The notes under the pieces were generated by a model. It made no database searches, had not been told where the DNA came from, and saw only the letters and a program-made list of their open reading frames with translations. From Caldifarciminota bacterium (GTDB taxonomy: Bacteria > Hydrothermota > UBA3072), in NCBI GenBank assembly GCA_016930175.1, contig JAFGHJ010000013.1:62001-126000 (forward strand): a stretch of 64,000 nucleotides of DNA, given 5' to 3'. The stretch's first letter is position 1. Every line of letters starts with the position of its first letter. Below are positions 17,880 through 40,902 of this stretch, one piece after another. The translations under genes were made by a program, and so were the position numbers.

Positions 17880-20675
17880 CTATTTTACCAGTACAACCTT
17901 ATTTATTTTGATGAATTTTTTCTTATTCTCTTCCATCCTGACGAAGTACACGCCTGCCGGTTTGCCGCTCATATCTATCTTCCCTGAATAGAAGCCTGCG
18001 GGCTTTTCTTCTGAAAGCTCTTTTATCTTCGTTCCTTTTATATCGTACACCTCAAGTTTGAGCTTAGCCTTTTCGGGAAGGGCGTATTTGATATCAAGCT
18101 GATTACCTACTGTTATTCCTTTAATATTGAAAGAATAAACCTCGGGCAGTTCGGGTGTAGGTATGGCTGTAACAGAGACGAAGGAAAATACAGCGTCGCT
18201 GGTGTCCGCCGGACTTCCGCTTGTATCGGATATTATCACAAGGCAGCTATCTGAAGTTGTATCGGGTATTGTCCAGAAATAGACCCCGGTATCGGGCATC
18301 TCAGCAATCACGTCTAACCAGCTCGAACCATTGTTTATAGAATACTCGATTTTGACCCTGCCGCTTGTACCAGTTGAAGTCCAGGTAATATAATAACTAT
18401 AACCTCTTCCCCAGTCTTCTCCGCCGTTTGGAGCCGTAACCGTTATATATGGGATAGGGGAGATTTTGAATATCGCATCACTGGTATCCGCCAGACTTCC
18501 GTTTGTATCGGCGATGCGCAAAAGGCAGCTATCTGAGGGTGTATCGGGTATTGTCCAGGGATAAACCCCTGTATCGGGTATCCCGGCAATCACGTCCGAC
18601 CAGCTCGAACCGCTGTCGGTCGAATATTGGATTAGGACACCTCCGCTTACGCCGTAAGAAATCCAGGTGACATTGTGAATACTATCTACCTCGAAGTCTT
18701 CTCCGCCGTTGGGAGAGGTAACTGTTATGTATGGAATGGGTGAAATCTTAAATATAGCATCACATGTATCCGATGGGCTTCCGATTGTATCGGTTATACG
18801 AAGAAGACAACTATCCGAAGGTGTGTCTGGTATCGTCCAGGGATAAACTCCTGTGTCGGGTATCCCGGCAATCACGTCCGACCAGCTTGAACCATTGTTG
18901 GTCGAATATTCGATTCTAACACCGCCGCTGGTACCGCCTGAAGTCCAGGTGACGTTGTGAACACTATCTACATGAAAATCTTCTCCGCCATTGGGGGATG
19001 TGACAGTTAAAGAAATGTCGGGCATTTCGACTTTTCCCCAACCGTATACATTATCTTTTCCTGATGCGCCCAGATCGACCGTGCAATTCGTATATAGATA
19101 ATCCCGGATTTCGCTGTTATTATATCCGGGAAATCGTGATTTAATTAAAGCACAGACTCCTGCTGTATGCGGGGATGATAAAGAAGTACCGGACCAGTAT
19201 CCGTAGGCGTAACTGTTGCAATTGTCGGGTGCCGCAACGTCTGGTTTTGTTCTTCCGTCTGTTGTCGGTCCCTGAGAACTGAAGGTTTCCTGAGGGCCGG
19301 AGGTATAATTGATTCTATTAATAGCTCCAACGGTTACAACATCCGTAATCGTCCCCGGATCAGTCAGACTGCTTGAATTTGTGTGATAGCCGAAGCTTCT
19401 ACTCAAATCGAATAATGTAAAATCCCAATCATCACTTGTAGAATACTCTTTTACTGCAACACCATACATCCCATTTGCATATGGGTTTGTGTAAACTATT
19501 GTTTCTTCCGGATATGAAGATCCGGTTTGTCTTTCTGTAGAACTGGCAACAATTGACCAATGTGGTGTTGGAATGGTGTCATATCTTGCCAGGTAAAGGT
19601 CGTAGTCCTGATTCGAATATATATAGTCATCCCAGTTCAGGGTAATTATAATGGCTTCCCCGGGGTCGTGAAGCCACACGTGAGTAGGATCGGGACCGAT
19701 TGGGTTTACATTACCTGATCCAAAAGCATGATAACCAGATCCGTCATCTGCGAATATCGATCTATAATGGTCTTCGGCTGAGTTACCTGCCGAATTTACC
19801 CACAGAATTCCATTGCTTAATGCGTTATTGACAATATTGCATATGAATCCTGTTCCGTCATAGTAACCTCCCGTGTTGAACCATCCCATTGAATGATTTA
19901 CGATGTCTACGCCATTGCTGATACAGGTATCTTTTGCGTTTTCAAAATCGGTTACATCTGCTATCTTGTATAAATAAAATTCTGCGTTAGGGACCAGATC
20001 AAAAATAGCTTCAGCTACTGCTGTCCCGTGAGGAGTTCCTGTTTGAAGCCCGGTTCCGGTAAAGTCATGACTTGTATAAGATGACGGTATATCACCTTCG
20101 GTTTGCGCGTTAATTAAAGACGTAAATCCACCGTCGATAACGGCTACTTTAACGCCTGAACCCGAATCACCTACTGAGTGCCAATGGTCGGCATTCATAA
20201 GGGCAACACCTTCACTGGTGACTGCATGCTCCTTTGGTCTCATCGGGGGTATGATTTCTGCAAAATCTTTAATAGAGGTTGCTACATTTTCAAGCTCGCT
20301 TATTGGTATTTCAACTCTCATGGAGTGGTTCGCTTTTGCTTGAATTCTCGAACCGAAAGCTCTTAAATTATTTCCATCGATGTTTGCCGTTGTAATACCG
20401 GGTTTCGTTAGAACAGTTACGACTACTCTGTCTTCAACAAGTTGCAGGTCGGATTGTCTGGCAAATTGTCTATATTCTTTTTTTTCGGCATAAAGTTTGT
20501 AAAGTCTGTCTAAACTCGAGGAAAGATTTTTTATTTGTTTGGACTTATGGTCCATTTTGGTGGGTGGCTCGACTCGCAAATCATTGATTTTAATTGTTTT
20601 AAAATCTCCGGCAAAAACCGGATGGATATATATAACCGTGGTAAAAAGTATTAATATAAATATACTTTTGTTCAG
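17880..20675 (-). CDS. Secreted subtilisin-like protease with T9SS-type tail; CTG start
   Basis: 931 aa if started at CTG 20675. That codon lies 5 nt after AAGGAG (20681-20686), an in-frame TAA is four codons upstream, and it opens a perfect signal peptide (LNKSIFILILFTTVIYIHPVFA). The first conventional start, TTG 20579, would delete the signal. A propeptide-like region is followed by an S8 catalytic domain with Asp (VAVIDGGF), His (GTPHGTAVAEAI), the Asn oxyanion residue (WVNSAGNSA) and Ser (GTSLSSPHTAGV). Then come three 94-aa Ig-like repeats (PNGGEDF...VTW...IEYSTNNGSSW...DTGVYPWTIPDT) encoded with a 282-bp period, and a C-terminal sorting domain (LKLEVYDIKGTKIKEL...GVYFVRM). Likely an extracellular or surface protease. 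Confidence 0.9.
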   Translation of the reverse strand: MNKSIFILILFTTVIYIHPVFAGDFKTIKINDLRVEPPTKMDHKSKQIKNLSSSLDRLYKLYAEKKEYRQFARQSDLQLVEDRVVVTVLTKPGITTANIDGNNLRAFGSRIQAKANHSMRVEIPISELENVATSIKDFAEIIPPMRPKEHAVTSEGVALMNADHWHSVGDSGSGVKVAVIDGGFTSLINAQTEGDIPSSYTSHDFTGTGLQTGTPHGTAVAEAIFDLVPNAEFYLYKIADVTDFENAKDTCISNGVDIVNHSMGWFNTGGYYDGTGFICNIVNNALSNGILWVNSAGNSAEDHYRSIFADDGSGYHAFGSGNVNPIGPDPTHVWLHDPGEAIIITLNWDDYIYSNQDYDLYLARYDTIPTPHWSIVASSTERQTGSSYPEETIVYTNPYANGMYGVAVKEYSTSDDWDFTLFDLSRSFGYHTNSSSLTDPGTITDVVTVGAINRINYTSGPQETFSSQGPTTDGRTKPDVAAPDNCNSYAYGYWSGTSLSSPHTAGVCALIKSRFPGYNNSEIRDYLYTNCTVDLGASGKDNVYGWGKVEMPDISLTVTSPNGGEDFHVDSVHNVTWTSGGTSGGVRIEYSTNNGSSWSDVIAGIPDTGVYPWTIPDTPSDSCLLRITDTIGSPSDTCDAIFKISPIPYITVTSPNGGEDFEVDSIHNVTWISYGVSGGVLIQYSTDSGSSWSDVIAGIPDTGVYPWTIPDTPSDSCLLRIADTNGSLADTSDAIFKISPIPYITVTAPNGGEDWGRGYSYYITWTSTGTSGRVKIEYSINNGSSWLDVIAEMPDTGVYFWTIPDTTSDSCLVIISDTSGSPADTSDAVFSFVSVTAIPTPELPEVYSFNIKGITVGNQLDIKYALPEKAKLKLEVYDIKGTKIKELSEEKPAGFYSGKIDMSGKPAGVYFVRMEENKKKFIKINKVVLVK
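18190..19010 (-). repeat. Three tandem 282-bp repeats inside the subtilase gene
   Basis: Related text recurs at 18241, 18523 and 18805 (AGGCAGCTAT, AGGCAGCTAT, AGACAACTAT), an exact 282-bp period encoding the 94-aa Ig-like repeats. The first two units are closest to each other. Confidence 0.8.
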
Positions 20676-20680
20676 CTTTT

Positions 20681-20686
20681 CTCCTT
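20681..20686 (-). promoter_or_regulatory. Shine-Dalgarno that fixes the CTG start of the subtilase
   Basis: AAGGAG on the minus strand, 5 nt ahead of CTG 20673-20675. The local arrangement (AAGGAGAAAAGCTG) is nearly the same as the one before the TTG start of rplY (AGGAGGAAAAGTTG). Confidence 0.7.
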
Positions 20687-39380: not shown

Positions 39381-39665
39381 TTATTTCTCCTTTACCACAA
39401 GAATATGTCTTAGTATGTTGTTGTTTTGACGCATGAATTCTTTAAGATTATTGATTTTTTCAGGATCTGCCTCAAAATTAATTACAGTGTAGAACCCTTT
39501 ATCATGTCCGTCAATTTCGTATGCGAGTTCTTTAATTCCCCATTCGTCTACTTTTTTAATTTTTGCTTTATTCTTTTCAAAGTACGCCTTTATTTCTTCT
39601 GTAATTTGTTTTGACTCTTCTTCTTTTTCTGGATTGATGATGAACGTGCATTCGTATTTTCTCAT
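39381..39665 (-). CDS. rpsF: 30S ribosomal protein S6
   Basis: 94 aa, the usual bacterial S6 length. Starts MRKYECTFIINPEKEEE and carries KKVDEWGIKELAYEIDGHDKGFYTVINFEADPEKI, the RNA-facing core, then the short C-terminal helix with NILRHILVVKEK. Overlaps pth by 4 nt (ATGA). Binds 16S rRNA with S18. Confidence 0.96.
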   Translation of the reverse strand: MRKYECTFIINPEKEEESKQITEEIKAYFEKNKAKIKKVDEWGIKELAYEIDGHDKGFYTVINFEADPEKINNLKEFMRQNNNILRHILVVKEK

Positions 39666-40231
39666 TTAACCTCCTTTTGATTCCCGTTAATTTTTGACAT
39701 AGCCACATCAATACTTTCATCTTTCCAAATGAAAACAGCTTCTTTAGCTTTTTTCAATATTTCGGGTATTGCTTTTTCTTCCTCTTTACTAAACTTCGAG
39801 AGTACCCAATCCGAAGTTTCATTATTTTCAGCATTTCCTATTCCGATTCGTAGGCGTGGTATATTTTCGCTATCAAGATGATATATTATAGATTGTAAAC
39901 CATTATGTCCGCCATCGCTTCCCTTGTTTCTTAACCTTAATTTACCGAAGGGTAAGTTTATATCATCGAGGACGATGAGAATATTTTCCAGGGAAAGCGA
40001 AAAGTCTTCATGTAATTCACGTACAGCGATTCCACTGTTATTCATAAAGGTTGTCGCGTAAGCCAGGATAAGATTTTCTTTTAGCGAATAGTAATAATGC
40101 CCTTTGCCAGGTTTAAACCTCAATTTTTTCTTCGAACAAATAAATTGTATTAGTCTTCCTCCAAGGTTATGCCTGGTTCCGATGTAAAGGGCTGAGGGAT
40201 TGCCAAGCCCTATAGCTGCACGATATTCTAT
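39662..40231 (-). CDS. pth: Peptidyl-tRNA hydrolase with an apparent AUA start
   Basis: 189 aa if started at ATA 40231. The frame from the first usual start (TTG 40123) would lack the first 36 residues, including conserved catalytic parts. The upstream stretch reads EYRAAIGLGNPSALYIGTRHNLGG, with the substrate Asn (GLGNP) and catalytic His (TRHNLG); Asp (LDDINLPFG) and Asn (GGHNGLQS) follow. GGAG (40240-40243) stands 8 nt before ATA, and ATA overlaps the TAG of rplY (ATAG), mirroring the ATGA overlaps seen elsewhere. There is no ATG, GTG or TTG in the right place. Pth releases tRNA from peptidyl-tRNA. A base error in the assembly is the main alternative. Confidence 0.9.
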   Translation of the reverse strand: MEYRAAIGLGNPSALYIGTRHNLGGRLIQFICSKKKLRFKPGKGHYYYSLKENLILAYATTFMNNSGIAVRELHEDFSLSLENILIVLDDINLPFGKLRLRNKGSDGGHNGLQSIIYHLDSENIPRLRIGIGNAENNETSDWVLSKFSKEEEKAIPEILKKAKEAVFIWKDESIDVAMSKINGNQKEVK

Positions 40232-40902
40232 TCGGCACTCTCCTTTTCTTTTTGTTCTTCTGCTTTTTTTACTACTTCTTCTCCCTCTTTTGCAATAACT
40301 TCTGGTTCCTCTGCTTCCTCACCTATTGCAATCTCTTCCTCAGCAGGTTTGACTTCTATGAGTTTTCTTGGAGATAGAATGTTTACGATAGTTGAAGAGG
40401 GGTCCTCTTCAACTTTAACACCTTCTGGTATTTGAAGGTCTTTAATGTGTATGGATTGTCCTATTTCAAGATTACTAACATCCACCACTATTTTTTCAGG
40501 TATATCTTTGGGTAAGCACCTGACTATTAAAGCCCTGTGTTCTAAATTTAATATTCCGCCTTCTTCTATGCCTTTAGCTTTGCCCTGAAGTTCAAGTATG
40601 ACGTGGACACTAACTTCTTCGTTTTCATGTATATGTTGAAAATCTACATGTAATAGTTTCTCATTTAGTGGGTTTCGGCTCACCTCGCGCATGAGTACCT
40701 GAAGTTTTTTCCCTTCGTAGTCTAGATTTAACAATGTCGCTTCGGAGTGCAGGGAGTGTAATACGTTTTTTAGTTCTTCTTCCTTAATCATTATTGGTCT
40801 GCTTTTTTCTCCGTGACCATAAATGATGCCAGGAATCCATCCCTCTTTTCTGAGATGATTGACTTTCCTACTTCCTAGTTCTGTTCGATCTTTTGCTTTC
40901 AA
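40228..40902 (-). CDS. rplY: 50S ribosomal protein L25 (CTC form)
   Basis: 224 aa from TTG 40902, five nt after AGGAGG. Residues 1-90 are the 5S-rRNA-binding L25 domain (RKVNHLRKEGWIPGIIYGHGEKSRPIMI); about 95-185 form the TL5/CTC C-terminal domain (VHVILELQGKAKGIEEGGILNLEHRALIVRCLPKDIP), and the end is a charged Glu/Lys-rich tail. The long form is found in Thermus and many other bacteria and may act as a general stress protein. Sits between prs and pth, as in Firmicutes. Confidence 0.95.
   Translation of the reverse strand: MKAKDRTELGSRKVNHLRKEGWIPGIIYGHGEKSRPIMIKEEELKNVLHSLHSEATLLNLDYEGKKLQVLMREVSRNPLNEKLLHVDFQHIHENEEVSVHVILELQGKAKGIEEGGILNLEHRALIVRCLPKDIPEKIVVDVSNLEIGQSIHIKDLQIPEGVKVEEDPSSTIVNILSPRKLIEVKPAEEEIAIGEEAEEPEVIAKEGEEVVKKAEEQKEKESAE
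40240..40243 (-). promoter_or_regulatory. Shine-Dalgarno serving the AUA start of pth
   Basis: GGAG on the minus strand within the last codons of rplY, 8 nt before ATA 40231. Confidence 0.55.

Follow-up and report, generated by a model that had tools for sequence, protein, structure and literature searches.

Introduction

The infC gene starts at AUU, AUC or AUA in Escherichia coli, Streptomyces and Staphylococcus aureus, where this start serves the autoregulation of its product, the initiation factor IF3. Another AUN start, the AUU of pcnB in E. coli, is not known to lie over a stop codon, and we know of no feedback of peptidyl-tRNA hydrolase (Pth) on IF3. In S. aureus the AUA starts of infC, ccpN and citZ are real, those of ccpN and citZ yielding about 10-30% of AUG, according to PMC13009471, which cites Binns and Masters 2002 for the AUU start of pcnB, which limits expression. 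IF3 represses non-canonical starts, for example the GTC of Streptomyces sigR (PMC5472188).

The pth gene of the window—the whole stretch of 64,000 nucleotides analysed here—resembles infC of these three bacteria: a rare AUN codon, a strong Shine-Dalgarno (SD) sequence, conservation and a function in translation. The start of pth in the family studied, unlike that of infC, overlaps the stop codon of the ribosomal-protein gene before it. The ccpN (AUA), citZ (AUA) and cvfC1 (AUU) genes of S. aureus also have conserved AUA/AUU starts that lower the yield, as that of pth probably does; they differ in being experimentally mapped, in concerning other genes and in having an extended SD, and the accessible part of PMC13009471 reports no stop-start overlap for them. 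With sigR the likeness is that of a non-canonical start kept taxon-wide (across a genus) as a throttle, and mis-annotated by gene finders, except that the codon is GTC rather than AUA and that repression by IF3 is demonstrated for sigR (PMC5472188). The AUU of pcnB likewise limits expression, in a different gene. In the openly accessible literature no report of a non-canonical pth start was found. pth is a new gene among those starting at AUA or AUU, and the notable part is its conservation.

The start of pth in the window

The rplY/pth pair is an overlapping one (NTGA type), start and stop having bases in common, and pth would begin in the manner of infC: an AUN codon stands at SD spacing and no ATG, GTG or TTG would give the conserved protein (Table 1). 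The frame is open from 39662 to 40318 on the minus strand, that is for 29 codons upstream of the ATA in G000, the genome of the window, and is the -1 frame of rplY. Over 39662-40231 (-) it contains no ATG, GTG or TTG upstream of the conserved GLGNP core; the first one, TTG 40123, comes 36 codons in, past both GLGNP and TRHNLG, which the sequence-only reading had noticed and the reading frames reconfirm. The start which that reading had proposed, ATA 40229-40231 with GGAG 8 nt away, is borne out by the same joint in six of six genomes of the family, and the length of 189 aa that it had counted agrees with ours. ATA 40231-40229 is confirmed as the sole workable start that can be predicted for pth.

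Table 1. Coordinates in the window of pth, its neighbours and the elements of their joints
Feature	Position	Strand	Remarks
rplY, ribosomal protein L25 (Ctc type, TL5 C-terminal domain), acidic tail	40228..40902	-	putative upstream coupling partner
Shine-Dalgarno core GGAG, inside the end of rplY	40240..40243	-	8 nt before AUA; spacing exact in 6/6
AUA start codon of pth	40229..40231	-	kept in 6/6 family genomes
Stop TAG of rplY	40228..40230	-	two bases common with the AUA start (ATAG overlap)
pth, peptidyl-tRNA hydrolase	39662..40231	-	189 aa from AUA; PF01195; alignment to solved Pth chains
rpsF-like gene, downstream of pth	39381..39665	-	ATGA overlap with pth

The product matches Pfam PF01195 over the whole domain (E 8.6e-53, profile positions 3-183 of 183), and that of the upstream gene matches L25 plus TL5_C. 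The Pth core aligns with solved Pth chains beginning at query residue 4-7, so that a protein begun at ATA would have, as is usual, a few residues ahead of the first strand. In the alignment (ten relatives) N11, H21, N64 and D89/D90 are invariant; we take them to be the catalytic Asn, His, Asp and Asn residues of Pth. Production of Pth from a start further down is very unlikely. The Ile codon ahead of GLGNP is admittedly AUA or AUU in six of six genomes, but it stands 26 nt from the SD and its use would remove the first beta strand, whereas TTG 40123 would lose the catalytic Asn and His segments that the alignment shows to be invariant.

At its other end pth forms a true ATGA overlap at 39665-39662, its TGA lying over the ATG of the rpsF-like gene. 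This is the ordinary counterpart of the rplY/pth joint, and it matches the resemblance previously drawn between ATA over the rplY TAG and ATG over TGA elsewhere in the window.

The rplY/pth joint in the family

The source genome is a draft of 2.34 Mb in 48 contigs, and the named relatives of the clade are MAGs of candidate division WOR-3, Stahlbacteria and TA06. Its family (f1) comprises six genomes, G000-G005, of five genera, assembled separately, and the identity of Pth among them is only 57-66%. Nevertheless GGAG-N8-ATA-[A/G] is found at the joint in all six: GGAG-AGTGCCGA-ATAG in G000, GGAG-AGTGAAAA-ATAA in G001, GGAG-ACTAAGGA-ATAG in G002, GGAG-AGCGGTAA-ATAG in G003, GGAG-ACCAAGGA-ATAG in G004 and GGAG-ACTGAGGA-ATAG in G005. 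None has ATG, GTG or TTG at the ATA codon, and a conserved alternative start with intact GLGNP, sought in the same six genomes, was not found.

Four of the six have an in-frame stop above ATA, either directly before it (TAA in G003) or two codons before (G001, G002 and G005). Between stop and GLGNP, G003 reads ATA GAA TTA AAG GCA GCG ATT, of which only ATA suits the SD. Stops one or two codons above ATA, together with the common joint, rule out a longer frame, a fusion with rplY and a base error. A fusion of L25 with Pth, made by a -1 frameshift where rplY ends, would suit the relative frames of the two genes and the 29 codons open upstream in G000; faced with the stops just listed, and since a slippery heptamer common to the joints of the family was not found, we hold it highly improbable. 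The base error in the assembly that the sequence-only reading had kept as an alternative is rejected: the draft state of the assembly could be invoked for a wrong call at 40229, but the identical codon in five further genomes makes its probability practically negligible.

The rplY codon making the SD is GAG in six of six, as against 40% GAG among the Glu codons of these rplY genes, which by chance would occur with a probability of about 0.004 (if the genomes are independent, with an expected frequency of 0.40). This suggests a site maintained as a putative ribosome-binding site, bearing in mind that the Glu/Lys-rich tail of rplY readily yields an SD-like GGAG. Besides, ATA has only one base that the overlapping stop leaves free, so that conservation of the codon by itself is weaker than it appears. 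Altogether, the comparison confirms the predicted AUA start of pth as a real feature of the family, shared by six of six genomes.

Other non-canonical starts in the clade

In G000-G005 infC starts at AUU or AUA behind AGGAGG, and in G006-G009 and G035 at AUA (L255 4940-5491 (+), L168-L175); AUN starts are found in several other WOR-3 families; those of the family appear to match the IF3 autoregulation known elsewhere. For tyrS, AUA follows GGAGG in five of the six family genomes (L271 6359-7531 (-), L312-L316) and G004 has an ATG adjoining the AUA position; in the other WOR-3 genomes shown the start is ATG or GTG in nearly all, G037 being ambiguous. A comparison of G000 with G003 covered 206 orthologous ORF pairs, screened for a frame conserved upstream of every canonical start together with an SD-placed AUA/AUU; infC, tyrS and pth were the only ones to show this in both genomes. 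The stretches of genome examined amount to 1.04 Mb, about 44%.

A survey of coding potential gave a few more candidates, tatD and clp among them. The apparent start of a tatD-like gene (L362 5099-5824 (-), G018) and of a clp-like gene (L370 1572-3947 (-), G003) is GGAGG-N4-ATA. In controls, which are small samples, G018 gave one candidate (tatD, AUA) and G009 none convincing. As tatD and clp may use AUA, the set would not be made of translation genes alone, and a regulon dedicated to these is not established.

Several AUA starts within one family might point to a special initiator tRNA, or to AUA decoded as Met. Either is extremely improbable: the initiator genes found are two copies with anticodon CAU and the usual initiator features, a UAU tRNA was not found among the tRNA genes scanned, and AUA is common internally (4862 of 11312 Ile codons). 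We also rejected a relaxed IF3 as sole cause. In E. coli numbering, IF3 of the family carries F or Y at position 99 and W at 129. Both sites are highly variable across the phylum, and W129 also occurs in G022, a genome with a pth that begins at ATG; R131 and R133 are retained.

Other genes call for separate remarks. obg (L294 3013-3996 (+)) has ATT (or ATA) in G000 and ATG or GTG in relatives, and may have switched to AUU/AUA in G000 alone. An AUU start of cdsA in six of six was discounted, its ATTCGG apparently also coding for RFG in the uppS frame that overlaps it. At stop overlaps across the genome ATAA is enriched (23, versus 12 GTAA and 11 TTAA); A-rich last codons can explain the excess, and we do not take it as a sign of widespread AUA starts. 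In the window, a subtilase with a Por secretion tail (17880-20684 (-)) retains its signal peptide only if started at CTG 20675-20673, after GGAG. A PAS-GGDEF gene (L274 16155-17015 (-)) has GGGAGG-N6-ATT as apparent start. In a Cys/Met PLP enzyme (L266 12375-13682 (-)) no canonical start and no AUN codon stands at the SD of the conserved N-terminus, perhaps because of a frameshift in an A-rich stretch. prfB (L295 8581-9636 (+)) is ordinary, with apparently the usual RF2 frameshift region.

Pth starts beyond the family and origin of AUA

Pth was surveyed in WOR-3 families and in Ignavibacteria, Zixibacteria, Omnitrophota, Firmicutes and others, comparing non-truncated loci. In the remaining ones a canonical start lies in frame with GLGNP, 4-13 codons upstream of it, with the exceptions of f9 (n=3), G008 and G087. 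In f9, another WOR-3 family, the three genomes have pth at ATA (GGAG-like SD, ATA-ATA); G008 has ATA in GGAG-N8-ATAG, or ATC; G087 (L200) has GGAG-N8-CTGA, an apparent CUG start over the rplY stop. f1 and f9 are separate in both the Pth and the IF3 trees, whose deep branches are weak, and AUA was probably gained at pth at least twice (f1, f9).

In 21 other WOR-3 rplY/pth joints ATG, GTG or TTG overlaps TGA at precisely the site that ATA, over TAA or TAG, occupies in f1 and f9. New with respect to the sequence-only reading are the family-wide ATA, the similar starts of infC and tyrS, and the ATGA at the joint in other families. A single G>A in an ATGA overlap would give ATAA, changing AUG into AUA and UGA into UAA at once, and a subsequent UAA>UAG would lock AUA, as reverting to AUG would destroy the rplY stop. 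The locked ATAG is present in five of the six family members; G001 and f9 still have ATAA, from which one A>G would restore AUG and a UGA stop.

Such a history might also leave AUA as a start with no regulatory role, a slightly harmful G>A that became trapped, SD and coupling being sufficient for expression. The geometry of the overlap, with ATGA, GTGA or TTGA at the same position in the 21 other joints, and the locked form in five of six members would suit this possibility, which keeps an appreciable chance although we find it rather doubtful: the revertible ATAA is still there in G001 and f9, AUA is retained at tyrS in five of six genomes of the same family, and the rare starts of infC are regulatory in other bacteria.

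In family f13 (L161 G039, L162 G020, L163 G031, L164 G026, L165 G040) pth consists of two overlapping frames. It is split at a T9-T10 run directly after GKG and full-length Pth requires a -1 shift, for which ribosomal or transcriptional slippage would be needed; the split occurs in five genomes of three genera, which makes a common error unlikely. In a single genome, G054 (L166), pth is split further into the gene, at a run of 9 A, and this may be a sequence error.

Discussion

We favour a regulatory reading of the AUA start. In WOR-3 family f1 the ordinary fMet-tRNA(CAU) would translate pth from AUA. From the anatomy of the joint we infer that ribosomes terminating rplY at UAG would re-initiate on the overlapping AUA, helped by GGAG 8 nt upstream within the rplY tail. 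Being a poor start, disfavoured by IF3, AUA would hold Pth low and tied to the translation of rplY, and the level of Pth would follow the activity of IF3, as with infC. The proposed re-initiation and IF3-limited use of AUA are supported by the reality of the AUA starts in S. aureus and by the repression of the sigR GTC by IF3. It is quite likely, judging from the joints compared, that AUA is a weak, IF3-disfavoured start, derived from an ATGA overlap and coupled to rplY, which keeps Pth low; it probably acts as a throttle on Pth production.

The succession ATGA, ATAA, ATAG offers a simple one-base route to a locked AUA start in overlapping genes. Gene finders overlook the start codons of infC, tyrS and pth, so the N-termini annotated for these genes in the clade are probably incorrect.

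A wider idea, conceivable but unlikely, is that a fidelity-sensitive pth recurs in WOR-3—AUA in two families, CUG and AUA/AUC in two more, and the f13 frameshift—so that Pth reports fidelity. If this were true, the level of Pth would register the fidelity of initiation and of frame, like the level of IF3 does via infC. The AUA pth and the split pth of f13 make a link between Pth supply and translation fidelity testable, and pth adds an essential gene to the very few bacterial genes known to start at a conserved AUA.
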